Source: Ignavibacteriota bacterium (GTDB lineage Bacteria > Bacteroidota > Ignavibacteria > Tepidaquicellales > Tepidaquicellaceae). From it: a stretch of DNA of 64,000 nt. The notes below the pieces were generated by a model, which did not search any database, was not told where the DNA came from, and worked only from the letters and a program-made list of their open reading frames with translations. How positions within the stretch are numbered: position 1 is the stretch's first letter; every line of letters starts with the position of its first letter. This document shows positions 6,731 through 15,458 of this stretch, piece after piece. A program made the translations under genes and the position numbers. The stretch spans positions 124,001 through 188,000 of the forward strand of contig JAPLFJ010000034.1 of assembly GCA_026390735.1 (NCBI GenBank). The letters run 5' to 3'.

Positions 6731-9700
6731 ATGGGAATAAATTCAGGGAATATTCAGGAAAGCAATAATATTACCAAGGTTTCGATACCTTTAATAGTTT
6801 CTACTATAATAATAGTATTAGTAATTATCGTACTTGGAATATTAAACTATTATCACACCCAGGCAAATCTTTCCAAAGAAGCATTCCTGAATTTAGAAAA
6901 CATATCCAACTCAAAAATAGCAAGCATAACTTACTGGAGAAAAGATAAATTAGACGATGCCAGTATGCTGATGAATGATATTTCTCACAGGGATTTACTG
7001 GTAAACTATGAGAAGGGAAAATCTTCAGTAGTGCAGGTAGAAGTGTGGCTGAAATCTATGCTTATTCACGATGACGTTACCGAACTTATACTTTATGACA
7101 CAAAAAAGACTCCTCTTATTTATACTGAAAAGAAAGAATACCTAATTGAGAAGGAAAGGATTGAAGCTTTTGATAAATGCGTTCAGACAAAAGATGTAGT
7201 AATGTCTGACTTTTTTTCGGAAGAGCATGAAAACAACATAAGGATTGCAGTATTTATACCCGTATTCAAATCTTCCACGGAAAAGAATGAACTCAGCAAA
7301 GTTTTAATGATAGATTTCGACCCGGATAAAGGTCTGCATAAATTCATAGAAGAATGGCCGGTTCAGACAGAATCATCCGAAGCTTTTTTAATCAGAGATG
7401 ACGACAGGAACGTTCTTTACTTATCTAAACTAAAAGGGTCACAGAATAAAACTCTGACCTTCAAGATGCCTAAAAGTGATTCCGGTTTAATATCTGTTAA
7501 GGCGATAAACGGATTAAGAGGTAATTACCGCGGGTATGATTATTCAAGAAAAGACATTCATGTATTTATAAAGGAAGTTCCGGGAACGAACTGGGTTTTA
7601 ATTTCAAAAACTGATACTGACGAGATAAAGCATAATTCAATGGTAACGAGCGGATACATAATCTTAATCACATTTATTATTGTCATCCTTGCTCTGATGG
7701 TTACTTATATTTATAACAAAAGAAATAAAGTACACTTTTTCAAGGAACTATACGATAATGAATTACGAAAGAATATTCATCTTGAAAGGTTCAACATTTT
7801 ACTGAACAATGCCTACGACAGTATAATCCTTTACGATCATCAGGGTAATATTCTGGAAGCGAATTCAAGTGCACTTGAGTTGTATGGGTATAATCTTGAA
7901 GATATTAAAAAGCTAAACGTGAGTAATATAAGGGCACCCGAGAAAAGAATGGATGTAAGCGAAATACTGAAAGCACTGCACCATTCTGAAGGTATGATAT
8001 TTGAGACACTTCATCAGACAAAATCAGGCAGGGTATTCCCTGTTGAAGTAAGTGCATCGAGAATCGATTTTGGCGGGAAGACTTTTTTACAGGGCATTTC
8101 CCGGGACATAAGTTCGCGCAAGAAGTCTGAGGAGAAAATCATAGAATCGGAAGAAAAGTTTAAATCTGTATTCACTTATGCTAATGATGTGATGTTTATT
8201 ATGGATGAAATGAGATTTATTGCTGCCAATAAAAATGCGGAATCTTTATTCGGTTATAAAGCAGAACAATTGTTTAAATTAACTCCTGGTGACATTTCAC
8301 CCGAATTTCAGGAAGACGGAAGTCCTTCAAAAGACAAGTCTGTAGAATATGTAACGAAAGCATACAACAACGAACCTCAGTTCTTTGAATGGATTCATAA
8401 AAATTCGGACGGAGCTGAATTTCCTACCGAAGTAAGTTTAAACGCAATAATTATAAATGACAGGAAATATATCTTTGCAGTATTAAGAGATATTACATTC
8501 AGAAAGATACTTGACAAGACTTTAAAGGAAAAAGAAAAGAGTCTTGAACTGGCTCTTGACAGTTCCGAACTTGGGTACTACGATATGAATTTTGTTACAG
8601 GAAATGTAATAACAAACAAAACCTGTTTAAAAATGCTTGGATACGAAGAGGATAATTCTAAGAAAGACAAAGATTGGTGGAAAGGTTTAATACATCAGGA
8701 TGATAAGGAGAATGCAGATAATGTCTGGCATGAGTTTACTAACGGAAATACCGACTCGTATCAGGTAGAAGCAAGAATGCGTACAAAAGACGGGAATTAT
8801 AAATGGATACTGGATAAATGCAAAATATTCGAAGTCAGCCCTGATGGCAAACCCGTACGAATTGTAGGTACTTTTATGGATATATCTCAGAGAAAAGCAT
8901 ATGAAGAGGCAATCCTTACAGCAAAAGAAGCGGCAGAAGAATCCAACAACCTTAAATCGAATTTCCTAACGAACATGAGTCACGAATTAAGGACTCCTTT
9001 GACAGGTATTCTCGGGTTCTCTGAATTGCTCAGTTCCGAACTAGAGGATGAAGAACACAAAGAGATGGCAGAATTAATCTTAAAAGGAGGTAAGAGATTA
9101 ACTAATACACTTAATTCCATACTTGACTTATCAAGACTGGAATCAAACCAGTTAAGCGTATCAAGAAGTTTAGTTGATTTAGTAACTATCCTTGGAGAGA
9201 CTGTTGATTTATACTCAAGGAATGCTGCAAACAAAGGACTGAACTTAACGTTTGAAACGAATTGTGAGTCTCTTAACTGTAACATAGACGAAAAGATGAC
9301 CAATGATATTTTATACAATCTTTTACAAAATGCAATAACATACACAAACAAAGGCAGTGTCCGGGTGAGATTGGATGTAATAGAAACTGCCGAAACAAAA
9401 CTTGCAAGGATAAGCGTAAAAGATACCGGTATTGGGATTAATCCGAAATTCCACAAACAAATCTTTGAGCCGTTCAGACAGGCAAGCGAAGGTTTAAGCA
9501 GAAAGTTTGAAGGAACGGGACTGGGATTAACATTAACGAAAAAATTCACTGAAATGATGAGCGGAGAAATTTCATTGCTCAGTAACGAAGGCACAGGTTC
9601 TGAATTTATTGTAAAGTTTCCATTGATTAACTATACTTATAAAACTGAACGCATGCCGCAGTTCAACACAGAAGTAAAGAACGTCAGCAGAACAGAAGTA

Positions 9701-10087
9701 AAGAACGACGGCAGATTAAATGCAATCTTCATTGAAGATGAAATAGAGAATTTTGAGTTATTGAATATGCTTCTGAAGCCTTACATGAACATTAAGCACT
9801 ATTCATCGAGCATTGAGGCGATTGAGAATATAAAAGAGAATCAATACGATATAATATTTATGGACATTGGTTTGAAGGATCTAAATGGTATTGAAGCCAC
9901 AAAGCGAATCAGACAATTTGAAAATCATAAAAATACACCTGTAATAGCCATCACTGCATTTGCAATGGAGGGCGACAGGGAAAGGATACTATCAAGCGGC
10001 TGCGATGCGTATATATCAAAACCATTTACAAAGGAACAACTTTTTGTTGTGTTACGAAAATTTAAAATATTAGAGCACATAATTTAA
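6731..10087 (+). CDS. Membrane-bound hybrid sensor histidine kinase with three PAS domains and a receiver
   Basis: 1118 residues. Two membrane helices (about residues 18-42 and 308-330) bracket a periplasmic sensor region of about 265 residues. Then come PAS domains at about 350-475, 475-600 and 605-725, each closing with a DIS/DIT-type PAC motif. The HisKA box has the phospho-accepting histidine at about residue 748 (FLTNMSHELRTPLTGILGF). The HATPase has DTGIGI and GTGLGLTL motifs. A C-terminal receiver has its aspartate near residue 1044 (IIFMDIGLKDLNG). A lone receiver gene follows 4 bp later, so the two are probably one phosphorelay operon. The ligand is unknown. Confidence 0.95.
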   Translation: MGINSGNIQESNNITKVSIPLIVSTIIIVLVIIVLGILNYYHTQANLSKEAFLNLENISNSKIASITYWRKDKLDDASMLMNDISHRDLLVNYEKGKSSVVQVEVWLKSMLIHDDVTELILYDTKKTPLIYTEKKEYLIEKERIEAFDKCVQTKDVVMSDFFSEEHENNIRIAVFIPVFKSSTEKNELSKVLMIDFDPDKGLHKFIEEWPVQTESSEAFLIRDDDRNVLYLSKLKGSQNKTLTFKMPKSDSGLISVKAINGLRGNYRGYDYSRKDIHVFIKEVPGTNWVLISKTDTDEIKHNSMVTSGYIILITFIIVILALMVTYIYNKRNKVHFFKELYDNELRKNIHLERFNILLNNAYDSIILYDHQGNILEANSSALELYGYNLEDIKKLNVSNIRAPEKRMDVSEILKALHHSEGMIFETLHQTKSGRVFPVEVSASRIDFGGKTFLQGISRDISSRKKSEEKIIESEEKFKSVFTYANDVMFIMDEMRFIAANKNAESLFGYKAEQLFKLTPGDISPEFQEDGSPSKDKSVEYVTKAYNNEPQFFEWIHKNSDGAEFPTEVSLNAIIINDRKYIFAVLRDITFRKILDKTLKEKEKSLELALDSSELGYYDMNFVTGNVITNKTCLKMLGYEEDNSKKDKDWWKGLIHQDDKENADNVWHEFTNGNTDSYQVEARMRTKDGNYKWILDKCKIFEVSPDGKPVRIVGTFMDISQRKAYEEAILTAKEAAEESNNLKSNFLTNMSHELRTPLTGILGFSELLSSELEDEEHKEMAELILKGGKRLTNTLNSILDLSRLESNQLSVSRSLVDLVTILGETVDLYSRNAANKGLNLTFETNCESLNCNIDEKMTNDILYNLLQNAITYTNKGSVRVRLDVIETAETKLARISVKDTGIGINPKFHKQIFEPFRQASEGLSRKFEGTGLGLTLTKKFTEMMSGEISLLSNEGTGSEFIVKFPLINYTYKTERMPQFNTEVKNVSRTEVKNDGRLNAIFIEDEIENFELLNMLLKPYMNIKHYSSSIEAIENIKENQYDIIFMDIGLKDLNGIEATKRIRQFENHKNTPVIAITAFAMEGDRERILSSGCDAYISKPFTKEQLFVVLRKFKILEHII

Positions 10088-10091
10088 TTTT

Positions 10092-10532
10092 ATGGGAATT
10101 CTAAAATATTACTCTTCTGAGATATCAGAAAATTCAGTTAGTAATACTCCTAAAAGGAAGATATTGCTCATAGAAGATGACGAGTTTTGCGCATACACTG
10201 TATTAAGGTTAATGAGGAGTGATTTTGAGATTGTTCATAAATTCACAGGACTTGAAGGAATCGAAGAAGCAAAGAAAAATAATTACGATTTATTACTGCT
10301 TGATATCGGATTAAAGGATATCAATGGAATGGAAGTCCTGAATCGAATAAAAAACTTACCGGGTTATAATAACACACCCTCAATAGCCGTTACTGCTTTC
10401 GCAATGCTTGGAGACAAGGAGCGGTTCCTGAACAGAGGTTTTTCATATTATATTGCTAAACCATACGCAGTTAAAGAATTTATAGAGTTAATTTATAAGG
10501 CTCTGGAAAACAATAACATTATTCCTACATAA
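10092..10532 (+). CDS. Stand-alone response-regulator receiver protein
   Basis: 146 residues, receiver domain only (about residues 22-140). It has the acidic pair EDDE, phospho-acceptor aspartate in LLLLDIGLKDING, the T/A switch region AVTAFA and the conserved KP. There is no output domain. Its sequence closely resembles the receiver at the end of the upstream kinase (DIGLKDLNG versus DIGLKDING; ITAFAMEGD versus VTAFAMLGD), so it probably arose by duplication. It is translated 4 bp after the kinase stop, so it is in the same operon. It may act as a diffusible phosphate carrier or sink. Confidence 0.9.
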   Translation: MGILKYYSSEISENSVSNTPKRKILLIEDDEFCAYTVLRLMRSDFEIVHKFTGLEGIEEAKKNNYDLLLLDIGLKDINGMEVLNRIKNLPGYNNTPSIAVTAFAMLGDKERFLNRGFSYYIAKPYAVKEFIELIYKALENNNIIPT

Positions 10533-10595
10533 AATATTCATTAGTTAGTCCATTCACTTATCAATTATAGCCGGATTGACATCAAAATATAACAT

Positions 10596-10617
10596 TTAAA
10601 CTACATTAGTAGTTTAA
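10596..10617. promoter_or_regulatory. Palindromic candidate enhancer site, AAACTA-N6-TAGTTT type
   Basis: Perfect inverted repeat TTAAACTAC-ATTA-GTAGTTTAA, centred about 107 bp upstream of the transcription start predicted from the sigma-54 promoter at 10688. That is the usual distance for an NtrC-family activator site. The same core, AAACTA-N6-TAGTTT, recurs at 13581-13600 upstream of another sigma-54-like promoter. Confidence 0.5.
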
Positions 10618-10687
10618 TAACTATAATATCTATACCCCTCTTAACAATAAAAGTGCGAATACTACTTAATATCCAATAAAATCACTT

Positions 10688-10703
10688 TGGCACGCATATT
10701 GTA
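10688..10703 (+). promoter_or_regulatory. Sigma-54 (-24/-12) promoter of the 31-residue peptide gene
   Basis: TGGCACG-CATA-TTGTA keeps the GG-N10-GT spacing and the full TGGCACG -24 element. The predicted start is near 10713, giving a leader of about 42 nt with a strong Shine-Dalgarno. Confidence 0.65.
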
Positions 10704-10754
10704 TGTTAAAAGCAAATCACTATTTAAAAATTTAAATCAAGGGAGATTTAAACA

Positions 10755-10850
10755 ATGGGAACAGAAGTTAAAACCAACTTACTAAATCCTTACACAGTAG
10801 TTTTAGGAATCGTATTATTCGTATTCGTTAACTTAGCAATTTTTAGTTAG
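10755..10850 (+). CDS. 31-residue single-span membrane peptide, sigma-54 controlled
   Basis: The ATG is preceded by AAGGGAG (10739-10745) at 9-bp spacing, an unusually strong ribosome site for this window. The product starts MGTEVKTNLLNPYTVVLGIV and ends FVNLAIFS. It has a short polar N-terminus and one hydrophobic helix of about 18 residues running almost to the C-terminus, so it is probably an inner-membrane peptide. The unit is complete: sigma-54-like promoter upstream, then a 32-bp-stem hairpin at 10861-10980. I know no homologue. Function is unknown; membrane-protein modulators or type I toxins have similar size, but nothing here shows either. Confidence 0.65.
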   Translation: MGTEVKTNLLNPYTVVLGIVLFVFVNLAIFS

Positions 10851-10860
10851 GAATCAAGCT

Positions 10861-10980
10861 AACCCACGGATTTATAGAATGTACGATAATTCAATAATAA
10901 GTTTGTAAGATTAACACTTTCATTTCCTTCTTTGTCGTTGGAGTAAGAGAATTTTCGTGCATTCTATAAATTCGTGGGTT
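10861..10980 (+). repeat. Long hairpin (32-bp imperfect inverted repeat) after the small peptide gene
   Basis: Arms at 10861-10892 and 10949-10980 surround a 56-nt loop. As plus-strand RNA only one of 32 positions fails to pair, because two of the three DNA mismatches become G-U pairs (10869/10972 and 10882/10959). A T-run follows the 3' arm. It is most simply a large terminator or 3' RNA structure. A small MITE-like insertion is the alternative. Confidence 0.75.
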
Positions 10981-11041
10981 TTTATTCTAAATAATACCTG
11001 CTATACGGTATATTCGTATAATAACTAAACAATTCTTCGCT

Positions 11042-11069
11042 AATAATATAGTGCCATTACTATATTATT
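11042..11069. promoter_or_regulatory. Perfect palindrome upstream of the second sigma-54 promoter
   Basis: AATAATATAGT-GCCATT-ACTATATTATT, 11-bp perfect arms with a 6-bp spacer, centred about 103 bp upstream of the start predicted from 11133-11148. Same spacing class as the sites at 10596 and 13581, but the half-site orientation differs (TAGT-N6-ACTA rather than ACTA-N6-TAGT), so it may bind another protein. Confidence 0.4.
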
Positions 11070-11132
11070 CATGATATTACTGCTATTACACTATACATGT
11101 ATTCAAAATCATCATAATTTACTGCTATTTTT

Positions 11133-11148
11133 TGGCACACATTTTGTA
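11133..11148 (+). promoter_or_regulatory. Sigma-54 (-24/-12) promoter of the first Asp-box T9SS gene
   Basis: TGGCACA-CATT-TTGTA, GG-N10-GT spacing. Predicted start near 11158, about 20 nt before the ATG at 11179. It argues that the in-frame ATG at 11071 is not used. Confidence 0.6.
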
Positions 11149-11178
11149 ATACTATTAGTAAAACAAAACAACACGACT

Positions 11179-12822
11179 ATGAAAAATATAAACATAATAA
11201 TCGCAGCAATAGTAATCACACTCACAAGCCAGTTGTCATTCGGACAATGGGTTCCGGTAAATACTCTCAGTCTAGATTCGTATCCAGTGGTATCAATGGC
11301 ATCAAACAGCATAGTATTCGTTGCAGGCTCACAGAAGACTCAGAATGACAAAGGCGTAGTTTATAAATCAACAGACGGCGGAACAACATTCAGTTCATTG
11401 AACATTAATCCCCCGACAAGAAAATTATACTGCATCAACGCAAGAAGCGAAAATGAATTATACATCGGTGAAGGCGGAGTCAGGTTAACATCAGAAGGTC
11501 AGGTAAAAGCTTACAGAAGCACTAATGGCGGACAAACCTGGAATTCAATAATCACCACAGTTGACAGAGGATTCTTTAACTGGATTCTTTTCTCAAAGAC
11601 AAACCCGAATTTTGGTGTTATAATGTCAGACGCAAAGAACATAGGCAACAACAGTGATTTTTCTATGTGGAAAACAACAAACAACGGCACAACCTGGACA
11701 GCATTCACAGTTCCGAGTCAGAAATCAACCAGTTATATGAATTCAGGATATCTTATAGACAATAACTTCTACGGATTCGGTATGCAGGAAAAGACAGGAA
11801 TTATGATGACTAAAAACGGCGGAGCAAACTGGATATTCTCAGATTTATCGGCAATCAGCACAAAAGGTGTCTCTTCAGTTAGTTTTAACGATGACAAACT
11901 AAACGGTATTGCCTCATTCTTAAATGATAATGTAGTAGCAAGAACAACAAACGGCGGTACAAACTGGTTCTCGCAGTCAGTAAGCCCCTCAAACGCAATG
12001 ATTACAGGAACAGGCTCAGTTGATTACGTATCAGGAACAAACGCAGTATATTTAATGGTATCGAACACAACAGGCACACAGAGTTACAAATCAGTCGATA
12101 ACGGTGCAACGTGGGAATCGATTCCTGTACCTTCACAGGTAAAGGACGTTTACAGTTTTGATATATATTACAACGGTGTAAGCAATGCAACAGGATTCGG
12201 AACATCAAGCACAACAGCACCTATAAAATTAATAGACTCTTCCCCGCTGCCGGTTAAATTACAATCATTCACTTACTCAGTAAGCGGAAGAAATGTAAAT
12301 CTGAACTGGGCAACATCGATGGAAGAAAACAACGCAGGATTTGATATCGAAAGAAAAAGCGAAACAGGTAACTGGACAAAGGTCGGATTCGTAGCAGGAA
12401 AAGGAAATTCAAACAACGTAAATAACTATACATACACAGACAGCAAAATTGAATCGGGTAAGTTTTCATACAGACTGAAACAATCAGACTACAACGGTAA
12501 CTTTGAATACTTCACACTTTCAGGTAACGTAACAGTAGGAACACCTTCAAAGTATGTTCTTTCACAGAACTATCCAAACCCGTTCAACCCTGTAACAAAG
12601 ATAGATTTTGAAATACCGCAGGACGCAAAAGTAACTATGAAAGTTTATGACATCACAGGTAAGGAAATGTCAACATTGTTCAGCGGTGTAAAGAGTGCAG
12701 GTTTCCATACAGTACAGTTCGATGGAAACGGATTGAGCACAGGAATTTATTTCTACCGCCTGGTTGCCAGCGCAAACGGACAGGAAACAGTAATCACAAA
12801 GAAAATGAATCTGATAAAATAA
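11179..12822 (+). CDS. Secreted Asp-box beta-propeller protein with T9SS type A sorting domain
   Basis: The start at 11179 places a clean signal peptide (MKNINIIIAAIVITLTSQLS, cleavage after SFG-Q) at the N-terminus and lies after the sigma-54 promoter. The 547-residue product has at least six Asp-box (BNR) motifs such as STDGGTTF, STNGGQTW, TTNGGTNW and SVDNGATW, the signature of a sialidase-like or YCF48-like beta-propeller. A linker beginning SPLPVKLQSFTY leads to a fibronectin-like module. The C-terminus is a T9SS sorting domain with NYPNPFNPVTKIDFEIP. It is cargo for outer-membrane export and surface attachment or release. No catalytic residues were identified, so it may bind rather than cleave. 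Confidence 0.88.
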   Translation: MKNINIIIAAIVITLTSQLSFGQWVPVNTLSLDSYPVVSMASNSIVFVAGSQKTQNDKGVVYKSTDGGTTFSSLNINPPTRKLYCINARSENELYIGEGGVRLTSEGQVKAYRSTNGGQTWNSIITTVDRGFFNWILFSKTNPNFGVIMSDAKNIGNNSDFSMWKTTNNGTTWTAFTVPSQKSTSYMNSGYLIDNNFYGFGMQEKTGIMMTKNGGANWIFSDLSAISTKGVSSVSFNDDKLNGIASFLNDNVVARTTNGGTNWFSQSVSPSNAMITGTGSVDYVSGTNAVYLMVSNTTGTQSYKSVDNGATWESIPVPSQVKDVYSFDIYYNGVSNATGFGTSSTTAPIKLIDSSPLPVKLQSFTYSVSGRNVNLNWATSMEENNAGFDIERKSETGNWTKVGFVAGKGNSNNVNNYTYTDSKIESGKFSYRLKQSDYNGNFEYFTLSGNVTVGTPSKYVLSQNYPNPFNPVTKIDFEIPQDAKVTMKVYDITGKEMSTLFSGVKSAGFHTVQFDGNGLSTGIYFYRLVASANGQETVITKKMNLIK

Positions 12823-12825
12823 GGG

Positions 12826-12929
12826 ATTAGGCAATAGGCATTAAGCAAAAGCAGGAAACAGAATACAAAATTTAAATAAGTAATAGGCAATTCGGGGATT
12901 TGAGAGCCGGTAGGGGTACCGGCTCTTTT
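12826..12929. terminator. Repeat fragment followed by intrinsic terminator
   Basis: AGAGCCGGTA-GGGG-TACCGGCTCT (12903-12926) followed by T-residues is a strong terminator for the upstream gene. Between stop codon and hairpin, at 12828-12850, lies a copy of the GCCTAATGCCTATTGCC repeat in reverse orientation, the same sequence that ends the dnaJ gene at 46865-46890. Confidence 0.75.
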
Positions 12930-13580
12930 CATTTGTATTCCTTCCCTCAAAACCTAAGAAAAGAGTAACTCTGTGTTCTCCGTGAGCCTCTTGATATGCG
13001 AAGGTCCGCGTCTTACTGAGCAGATGAACCTAATCCTATAATTCCTTATCTTAGTCTATGATTAGTCTATGATTGGTCTCCATTTTCAGGGCTTCACGTC
13101 CTCATTATATATAACACCACAAAAACTAATCAACGGCACACATTGGAGTGGGAAAGACATTCAAAAGGTAAGAATAAGGTATTCAAAAGGCTTTAATTTG
13201 AATTGAGATTATCATAAATGTTTAAAATTGCTAAAGGAAAATACTCCATATGTAATTTACATTAATCATAAAATTACTCTGATATATAATGAATAATGAA
13301 ACCGACAAAAAAATTCCTATACTCAAACATCTAAATTTATTAACTGATAAAATAATAGTATAAAAGCATAATGCTTCAGATGGAAATGTATAAAGGAATA
13401 AAAAGAGTGTGACAAATCACGGAAATCTGCAATATTAGATTAATGTAAATATCTTTGATTTTAGTCTTATAATGGTGAATATTTACTAATCTAAATCGGT
13501 TCATGAATAATGTAAATTGATAAATCAATAATTTAGTAAGTAAATAATTTATCAAGAAAAGTTCCATTATGCGCAGTACC
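12930..13580. other. Intergenic region with an 11-bp tandem repeat and no convincing gene
   Basis: TAGTCTATGAT occurs twice in tandem at 13052-13073, followed in the same 11-bp phase by TGGTCTCCATT. The remainder is AT-rich with no ORF I trust. The next recognisable element is the palindrome at 13581. Confidence 0.6.
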
Positions 13581-13600
13581 AAAACTACGTAGATAGTTTT
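13581..13600. promoter_or_regulatory. Palindromic candidate enhancer site, second AAACTA-N6-TAGTTT copy
   Basis: AAAACTA-CGTAGA-TAGTTTT, centred about 93 bp upstream of the start predicted from the sigma-54 promoter at 13658. It shares arms and spacer length with the site at 10596-10617. Confidence 0.5.
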
Positions 13601-13657
13601 AGCACTTCATAATTATGATTTGTGACCCTGTTTTCATTGAAATATTGCACATTAGTA

Positions 13658-13673
13658 TGGCACGATATTTGAT
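13658..13673 (+). promoter_or_regulatory. Sigma-54 (-24/-12) promoter of the second Asp-box T9SS gene
   Basis: TGGCACG-ATAT-TTGAT has the complete TGGCACG element and GG-N10-GA spacing. Predicted start near 13683. Confidence 0.6.
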
Positions 13674-13694: not shown

Positions 13695-15458
13695 ATGAAT
13701 AAAAATTATAATATAAATACTATGAAAAAATCAAAGACAAAATCGGGCAAAATAGCAGTAATAATAGGATTACTGTTGATTTTGACTTCTAATTTGAGTT
13801 TTGGGCAATGGGTTGTCACAGGCAACTCTTCCCTGAGTAATATAGGTAGTTTTCCAAGTACCTGCGTAGTAGATCAAAATGTTATATTTGTAGCAGGTGG
13901 TGATAATACCGTTGGCGGTGTTATTTATCGCTCAACAAATGCAGGGGCTAATTTTACAAAACTGTCGATAAACGGTATAACAGTAAGAGATAACAAGAAT
14001 AAATACAGGTTCTTTTCCTGCATTTATGCAAAAGATGCTAACAATATTTTTGTAGGTGACGCATCGGCTTATGCAACAGACGGACTTTTGTTAAACGCAA
14101 AGTTTTACAAAACTACTAACGGTGGTACAAACTGGACAGTGGTTGACCAGACAGGTTCGGGTGTATATGGATTTTTCAACGGTATAGTATTTTCTAAATC
14201 AAATCCGCAATTTGGTATTGCACATTGCGACCCAAGCGACGCAAACGGTACTTTTTTAATCTGGAAAACAACTAACGGCGGGAGCAACTGGACCAAGATG
14301 AGTAACGCCCAGGCACCTAATGCCTATGGTGCTCAGAACAGTTTGTTCGTAATTGATCAGAACTTTTTCGGTTTTGGACTTAATATTTCGAATGCAAGAG
14401 TTGCAATAACAACAAATGGCGGAACAAACTGGAATTATTATTCATTAAATGGAGCAACATCTACACAAGGGTTTATATCAACAGTTACTTTTAATGATGA
14501 TAAGTTACACGGTTATGCAGCAGTCAGTTCTACAAATAATTTTATCTGGAAGACAACTAACGGGGGCCAGACATGGGATACTTTAAGAGTCGACGGAGTT
14601 CCTAACAATGCAAGTGGTCAGGCAAACATTAAATATATTAGCGGTACAAATTCTGCATTCTATGTACTTTCAAGTGCAACAACAGGATATAGTTTTAAGA
14701 TACTTGATAATGGTGCCGAATTCAGCCCTTATGTATCTTCAAATTTACTGAATGTAATGCACGTTGATTCATTCTACCAGCTGACTGACAAAGCTGTAGG
14801 AGAAGTAACGACAGTTGCAGTAACAAATACAGGTTCAGTTTTAAAACTGCAGGACTCCCCACTCCCGGTGACTCTTGCATCATTCACATACGCAGTTTCA
14901 GGGAGAAATGTTAACTTGAAGTGGATTACTTCAAGCGAACAAAACAATTCAGGATTTGAAGTCTGGCGTATCTTTGGCGATGCGGACAGAAGTATTGCTT
15001 CAAACTGGACAAACATTGGTTTTATACAAGGTAAGGGTAATGTAACCGGTAACACTGAATATAATTTCACGGATAAGAATCTTTCTACCGGGAAATATTA
15101 TTACAGGATTAAACAAGTAGATTACAACGGAAACTATGAGTACTTCGATTTAAACGGTTCAGCAAACATTGGTGCACCGTCGAAGATTACTCTCGGACAA
15201 AACTATCCGAATCCGTTTAATCCGGTTACCAGTATCGGATACGAAATTCCGCAGGATGCCAGAGTGACTATGAAAGTCTATGACATCGCAGGCAGAGAAA
15301 TTTCGACTCTCGTGAACGAGAAAATGGCGGCAGGATATCACACAGTGAGATTCGACGCGTCGAATTACTCGAGCGGTATGTACTTCTACAAGGTAGTAGT
15401 AAGAAGTGCAAACGGGACAGTATCCGAATACACTAAAACAATGAGTGTCGTGAAGTAA
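13695..15458 (+). CDS. Secreted Asp-box beta-propeller protein with T9SS type A sorting domain (paralogue)
   Basis: 587 residues from the first ATG. An internal ATG at 13722 gives a more compact signal peptide and a longer leader from the predicted transcript start, so either may be used. The export signal ends LSFGQW, the same junction as the protein at 11179. At least five Asp-box motifs are visible (STNAGANF, TTNGGTNW, TTNGGSNW, TTNGGTNW, TTNGGQTW). The SPLPVTLASFTYAVSGRNVN module and the sorting domain with NYPNPFNPVTSIGYEIP follow. It is a diverged tandem paralogue of the upstream T9SS gene with the same kind of promoter. Surface-exposed; ligand unknown. Confidence 0.88.
   Translation: MNKNYNINTMKKSKTKSGKIAVIIGLLLILTSNLSFGQWVVTGNSSLSNIGSFPSTCVVDQNVIFVAGGDNTVGGVIYRSTNAGANFTKLSINGITVRDNKNKYRFFSCIYAKDANNIFVGDASAYATDGLLLNAKFYKTTNGGTNWTVVDQTGSGVYGFFNGIVFSKSNPQFGIAHCDPSDANGTFLIWKTTNGGSNWTKMSNAQAPNAYGAQNSLFVIDQNFFGFGLNISNARVAITTNGGTNWNYYSLNGATSTQGFISTVTFNDDKLHGYAAVSSTNNFIWKTTNGGQTWDTLRVDGVPNNASGQANIKYISGTNSAFYVLSSATTGYSFKILDNGAEFSPYVSSNLLNVMHVDSFYQLTDKAVGEVTTVAVTNTGSVLKLQDSPLPVTLASFTYAVSGRNVNLKWITSSEQNNSGFEVWRIFGDADRSIASNWTNIGFIQGKGNVTGNTEYNFTDKNLSTGKYYYRIKQVDYNGNYEYFDLNGSANIGAPSKITLGQNYPNPFNPVTSIGYEIPQDARVTMKVYDIAGREISTLVNEKMAAGYHTVRFDASNYSSGMYFYKVVVRSANGTVSEYTKTMSVVK

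Follow-up and report, generated by a model that had tools for sequence, protein, structure and literature searches.

Within a 64,000-nucleotide stretch of the genome of an Ignavibacteriota bacterium (assembly GCA_026390735.1, contig JAPLFJ010000034.1, positions 124,001 to 188,000 of the forward strand; hereafter the window, numbered from its first letter), three putative sigma-54 promoters, at 10688, 11133 and 13658, are preceded by upstream elements composed of dyads of the form AGT-N6-ACT. Two such dyads in tandem, 20 bp apart, make up a predicted 32-bp element, and the palindrome AAACTA-N6-TAGTTT, which an initial annotation had proposed as the activator site of two of these promoters, is the middle of it. 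The three promoters probably form one sigma-54 regulon served by one activator acting on tandem AGT-N6-ACT dyads. From their promoter sequences, this activator seems to turn on a micropeptide gene and two exported-protein genes jointly, as parts of a regulon for building the cell surface; the micropeptide is a membrane peptide.

Tandem dyads upstream of three putative window promoters

The predicted -24/-12 elements, like the upstream elements, the three genes and the inverted repeat of this locus, lie on the forward strand: TGGCACGCATATTGT (10688-10702) before the micropeptide open reading frame (ORF), TGGCACACATTTTGT (11133-11147) before the propeller ORF at 11179, and TGGCACGATATTTGA (13658-13672) before a second propeller gene. 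All three contain TGGCAC-N5-TTG. Placing the GG at -25/-24 gives predicted starts near 10714, 11159 and 13684, and the centers of the upstream elements fall approximately 93-108 bp before these starts, within the 80-150 bp expected of sigma-54 activator sites. The genome of origin (G000, 4.02 Mb) encodes a single rpoN gene (PF04552 at G000:C1:68158, E 5.8e-52, in a 495-residue frame). It also holds TGGCACG-N4-TTG at 18 places compared with one for the reversed control, and TGGCAC-N5-TTGC at 15 places compared with four. The three window promoters would be sigma-54-dependent. The promoter at 11133 was missed in the initial annotation, which had recognized only the other two; for those, the palindromes and the -24/-12 elements are present as placed, and the distances of roughly 107 and 93 bp from palindrome center to predicted start are borne out.

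Both palindromes are exact over 18 bp, AAACTACATTAGTAGTTT at 10598-10615 and AAACTACGTAGATAGTTT at 13582-13599, and each sits inside a longer element. The element upstream of propeller gene 2 (13575..13606, 51 bp before TGGCA) matches AGT-N6-ACT-N8-AGT-N6-ACT at all 12 defined positions, reading AGT accaaa ACT acgtagat AGT tttagc ACT. That of the peptide promoter (10591..10622, 65 bp before TGGCA) has the form AAC-N6-ACT-N8-AGT-N6-ACT, matches at 10 of 12 positions and reads AAC atttaa ACT acattagt AGT ttaata ACT. Upstream of propeller gene 1, an element at 11050..11081 (AGT-N6-ACT-N8-CAT-N6-ACT, also 10 of 12) includes one intact dyad, AGTGCCATTACT, 71 bp before TGGCA. A consensus of 14 elements is again AGT-N6-ACT-N8-AGT-N6-ACT.

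In the mechanism proposed, the separation of 20 bp, about two helical turns, would align two activator dimers along one face of the helix, where they could cooperate to nucleate a hexamer. Measured to TGGCA, the dyads stand 50-84 bp upstream and favor a small number of distances, from which looping of the intervening DNA might bring the hexamer to the closed complex and allow it to be opened. The outputs would be surface components, comprising single-pass membrane peptides of 31 and 32 residues, proteins exported by the type IX secretion system (T9SS), a 69-residue protein and an NfrB-like polysaccharide synthase.

Conservation, placement and controls

The position of the site is conserved in the orthologous promoters of three congeners, whose loci keep the order micropeptide, sigma-54 element, propeller gene. 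Dyads of propeller gene 2 lie 51 and 71 bp before TGGCA in both G000 and G001, 50 and 70 bp in G002, and 52 and 72 bp in G003; the peptide-promoter dyad lies at 65 bp in G000, G001 and G003 and at 63 bp in G002; and the propeller gene 1 dyad lies at 71 bp in G000 and 70 bp in G002. A gene for a 69-residue protein elsewhere in the genome has dyads at 64 and 84 bp in both G000 and G004. The sequence around the dyads varies between orthologous promoters while these distances hold. Among 17 promoters compared, seven have two dyads, eight have one AGT-N6-ACT and two have none in range.

These comparisons bear directly on whether the activator binds AAACTA-N6-TAGTTT itself, with the two window promoters as its sole targets. 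In favor of that arrangement, both 18-bp copies are exact, and the exact form is scarce, occurring at four places in the genome (two for the reversed control), two of which are coding: one sits at an ORF start and one spans the end of a different ORF, and neither has a sigma-54 element in view. The palindrome is, however, lost from the congeners' orthologous loci, where AGT-N6-ACT keeps its distance but the AAA and TTT flanks are gone. Its core, ACT-N8-AGT, occurs in one of the eight single-dyad promoters, and the larger element is common to seven promoters of the genome. Allowing two mismatches, the window contains nine copies (8.64 expected) and is thus not enriched, the exact form being confined to the two sites. 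Genome-wide, palindrome plus TGGCA at a variable gap was found at four places, compared with seven for the reversed control, which is not significant, although one of the four, on contig C28, led to the larger element. The palindrome as binding site has little probability. Because orthologous promoters hold the dyads at constant distance and the palindrome core is so rarely kept, AGT-N6-ACT is most likely what the activator binds, the palindrome being the junction of two such units. Likewise, because at least three window promoters and seven in the genome have the element, a regulon is indicated rather than a pair of promoters. The earlier proposal that one activator serves the peptide and a propeller gene thus keeps its shared site at a suitable, conserved distance, while its parsing of the site and its number of targets have changed and the candidates for the activator narrow to two, as described below.

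In five congeneric genomes the exact 32-bp element occurs at eight places, seven of them 50-64 bp before TGGCAC-N5-TTG, and across 29 genomes of the family it occurs at 12 places, 10 of them 50-75 bp before a sigma-54 promoter (in one case a CGGCAT variant). Six of the 12 places (two in G004 and one each in G018, G019, G026 and G028) had not been seen when the pattern was chosen, and four of these six are sigma-54-linked. Within G000, 31 sites were assembled from the TGGCACG-N4-TTG and TGGCAC-N5-TTGC searches, together with a few others, wherever enough upstream sequence was available; TGGCAC-N5-TTG with other letters was collected non-exhaustively for this set. Seven of the 31 match the element at 10 or more of its 12 positions, with a gap of 40-80 bp to the promoter (scores 12, 12, 12, 11, 10, 10 and 10; the next best site scores 8), compared with a mean of 0.065 sites, and at most one, in 400 dinucleotide shuffles. 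Of 512 half-site spacings tried, 6/8/6 is the sole spacing with a 12/12 match, and it has three. A scan of 79 loci on the genome contigs yielded 29 loose sigma-54 matches, none with 9 or more of the 12 element positions.

Several observations weigh against a single sigma-54 regulon with AGT-N6-ACT sites. Where the canonical -12 TTGC ends in C, the sites at 10688, 11133 and 13658 have T, T and A, respectively. This deviation, with the sigma-54 assignment itself coming from sequence, favors an alternative in which the palindromes are operators of a repressor or of a sigma-70-type regulator and the TGGCAC elements are incidental. That alternative is nonetheless quite improbable in view of the 10 of 12 exact elements found 50-75 bp before a -24/-12 element, as the near-constant distance counts against an operator, which would not need it. 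The raw number of exact elements in the 29 genomes (12) is not above that of the reversed pattern (11), and two of the 12 (in G004 and G018) are chance matches in coding sequence. Chance coupled with AT-rich composition could account for equal counts of this kind; as an explanation for the sites as a whole it is scarcely credible, being contradicted by the placement of the elements, the conserved distances in orthologues and the shuffles. Since the raw count equals its control it is uninformative, and the signal is carried by placement before sigma-54 sites. The 31-site shuffle test is not independent of the pattern definition and is partly circular because some of the promoters counted had suggested the pattern; placement in the five and 29 genomes is the freer test. 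For the propeller gene 1 homologues of G011 and G023, an exact dyad is missing within 140 bp of the sigma-54-like element, which is a miss for deep conservation, and the propeller loci of G008 are without a sigma-54-linked element. Finally, no convincing AGT-N6-ACT element with a sigma-54 site was found beside any activator gene, L076 and L079 (the candidates discussed below) included, the one match noted being a 10/12 element that lies within a gene, ahead of a loose CGGTAT site, and the initial choice of activator, L080, has been withdrawn.

A second site class and the candidate activators

A second class of tandem sites, GTCTCA-N3-TGAGAC, also 20 bp apart, is found at eight of the 31 sites in G000 (L006, L013, L015, L016, L023, L030, L031 and L040), 49-81 bp before TGGCAC. 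Their scores, 22-24 of 24, compare with a maximum of 17 in 300 shuffle runs. These eight and the seven AGT-N6-ACT promoters do not overlap, so that 15 of the 31 candidate promoters have tandem dyads of one geometry and two specificities. The identical 20-bp spacing in the second class supports the reading of the first as tandem dyads. Second-class targets include two nearly identical 32-residue membrane peptides behind one promoter, which by eye resemble the first-class peptide on contig C46. Similar 32-residue single-pass peptides at L015 (G000:C46:22292, MKAIKQFTGADFSF...) and L014 (G000:C46:16705, MKNLKSFTGADFSF...) have promoters of different site classes.

The genome encodes 12 full-length AAA+ activator-type proteins, only one of which (L086) is without a GAFTGA-type loop. 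None is encoded in the window, in agreement with the initial annotation, which had placed the activator gene outside it and had suggested looking for rpoN and NtrC-type genes, both of which are present. A tree was built with 90 of 92 activator proteins from 12 genomes, L199 and L200 having been removed by a motif filter and the fragments L087 and L088, as well as L201 (G001), omitted from the set. Each of the eight genomes having a sigma-54-linked element is represented in four clades of the tree, those of L076, L079, L080 and L086.

L080 (G000:C60:703-2055), a REC-AAA+-HTH protein with a GSFTDA/GAFTDA loop, was the first choice as activator of AGT-N6-ACT on the basis of its phylogenetic profile. 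Orthologues with 63-94% identity occur in 12 of the 29 family genomes, including all eight with a sigma-54-linked exact element, while in the remaining 17 genomes identity is 47% or less among the matches listed. A loop of the GSFTGA or GAFTDA type is accepted as functional in a study of the Desulfovibrio regulome (PMC4641369). By genus, however, the profile is weak, with the element in two of five genera having L080 and in none of 11 without it, and the DNA downstream of L080 orthologues contains the other site class: TCTCA-N3-TGAGA-like sites followed by a sigma-54-like element. Among the 10 carriers viewed, out of 12, these sites are clear in seven (G000-G004, G009 and G011), single in G019 and weak in G026 and G028, and a membrane peptide of 35 to 40 residues follows them in G001-G004, G009 and G011. 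L080 was withdrawn on account of this other site class, and its activation of the window promoters is now considered unlikely. Instead, because second-class sites stand behind its gene, L080 is probably the activator of the GTCTCA-N3-TGAGAC class, which leaves L076 and L079 for AGT-N6-ACT. The latter activator probably belongs, by elimination only and assuming one orthologous activator for all eight genomes, to the orthologue group of L076 (an AAA+-HTH protein without receiver, G000:C50) or L079 (REC-AAA+-HTH, G000:C1). L080 itself scores 396 against the cut-off of 502.6 of TIGR02915, the model for the activator of the PEP-CTERM/PrsR regulon. A histidine kinase gene adjoins L080 in G000, and a receiver-type gene follows it in several of the orthologues (loci L207-L216).

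It is tentatively conceivable that two or more sigma-54 circuits operate side by side in Ignavibacteria, with a separate activator and separate tandem-dyad sites for each, the 20-bp geometry being common to both site classes. Each circuit would induce its own subset of single-pass membrane peptides (31-40 residues) alongside exported surface proteins. Instead of by-products, the peptides might then be specialized for one activator each, serving in the inner membrane as effectors or as feedback signals.

Predicted target genes and related systems

The 31-codon ORF behind the first promoter (10755..10850) encodes a predicted single-pass membrane micropeptide, MGTEVKTNLLNPYTVVLGIVLFVFVNLAIFS, without a match in Pfam or NCBIfam. 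Counterparts of the same length, 31 residues, follow the sigma-54 site in G001, G002 and G003 and have in common with it NPY and a hydrophobic stretch; the micropeptide families in general gave no convincing match in these two databases. Propeller gene 1 (11179..12822) encodes an exported protein with a T9SS type A sorting tail, matching Por_Secre_tail and Sortilin-Vps10, and propeller gene 2 (13695..15458) an exported beta-propeller protein with a T9SS sorting tail. A structural model of the latter (residues 27-435, predicted local distance difference test (pLDDT) 75) is beta-rich, and Foldseek matches it to propellers, including Ycf48 (TMt approximately 0.7).

Other targets in G000 include an NfrB-like glycosyltransferase on C1, a 69-residue protein on C28, a 32-residue membrane peptide on C46 and a T9SS-tailed protein on C35. 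The C28 protein (G000:C28:108594; L009, L108) has a counterpart with the same promoter spacing in G004; neither Pfam nor NCBIfam places it convincingly in a family. A glycosyltransferase of the NfrB-like type stands behind the element in two genera. That of G000 (L202:3137-5401) is divided between two ORFs, one of 431 codons and one of 320, compared with one ORF of 485 in G028, a member of another genus, where the element precedes an operon encoding a TPR protein, the glycosyltransferase as second gene, a WecB-like epimerase and a hydrolase. Scores for NF008411 (NfrB) are 191 bits in G000 and 329 bits in G028, below the curated cut-off of 1170; both proteins hit one and the same set of NCBIfam models, each time short of the cut-off, and are termed NfrB-like by resemblance only. 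An NfrB-dependent glycan that also depends on cyclic di-GMP is known in E. coli, according to two reports (PMC8669469; PMC8669472).

That sigma-54 governs the bacterial exterior is a well-known theme of earlier surveys, and extracellular polysaccharide and exported-protein targets are common to those systems and the present one (Francke et al., 2011, PMC3162934; Desulfovibrio regulome, PMC4641369). The nearest known parallel is the PEP-CTERM box of Proteobacteria, associated with PrsK/PrsR and RpoN (Haft et al., 2006, PMC1569441; PMC9850573). This sometimes repeated motif averages 62.8 nt before a sigma-54 element, ahead of exported proteins linked to exopolysaccharide (PMC1569441), and pepA requires RpoN1 (PMC1569441; PMC9850573). 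The likeness lies in an upstream motif and a sigma-54 element before a set of exported proteins, with the same kind of inference drawn. In contrast to AGT-N6-ACT, the PEP-CTERM motif is 17 nt long and ends in TTTACA (the comparison being with the text of PMC1569441), and the exported targets here bear T9SS tails instead of PEP-CTERM: the three tailed proteins (both propellers and the C35 protein) match Por_Secre_tail and no PEP-CTERM model, and the peptides match neither. The activator of the PEP-CTERM regulon, PrsR, has been named, whereas the AGT-N6-ACT regulon has the candidates L076 and L079.

NtrC-type enhancers possess two dimer sites upstream of glnA. The AGT-N6-ACT element likewise has two dyads on one helix face some 100 bp upstream of a -24/-12 promoter, and differs in site sequence, 20-bp spacing and surface-component targets. 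Overall, the predicted shared activator site is judged to be real, and the system, which pairs sigma-54 with an enhancer-binding protein, is of an ordinary kind in a little-studied group. What is notable is the strict tandem-dyad geometry predicted for two specificities and the recurrence of membrane micropeptides among the putative targets; micropeptides as recurrent outputs were not found in the available parts of PMC3162934 and PMC4641369. By word search, Bacteroidetes and Chlorobi are absent from PMC3162934 and Ignavibacter from PMC12316311, and no study of RpoN, or of a sigma-54 regulon, in Ignavibacteria was found in the open-licence PubMed Central literature. Within that literature, these are the first concrete sigma-54 activator sites found for the group. 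Through them, micropeptides that lack annotation, proteins exported by the T9SS and a polysaccharide synthase resembling NfrB would be joined in one regulon, and the AGT-N6-ACT pattern offers a simple tool for finding further members and for testing the role of the micropeptides.

Between the micropeptide gene and the promoter of propeller gene 1 lies an inverted repeat (10861..10980; 32 nt with a 56-nt loop) ending in GTGGGTTTTT. It folds far better than its shuffles (z = -7.68) and is a probable terminator or insulator; no copy was found in the other, non-overlapping loci compared, and the only Rfam match in the window is a tRNA. Directly upstream of the micropeptide promoter, positions 6731-10532 of the window encode a hybrid histidine kinase (PAS, HisKA, HATPase and receiver domains) and a single-domain receiver, and by eye an apparent end of a kinase reading frame lies upstream in the G002 locus as well.

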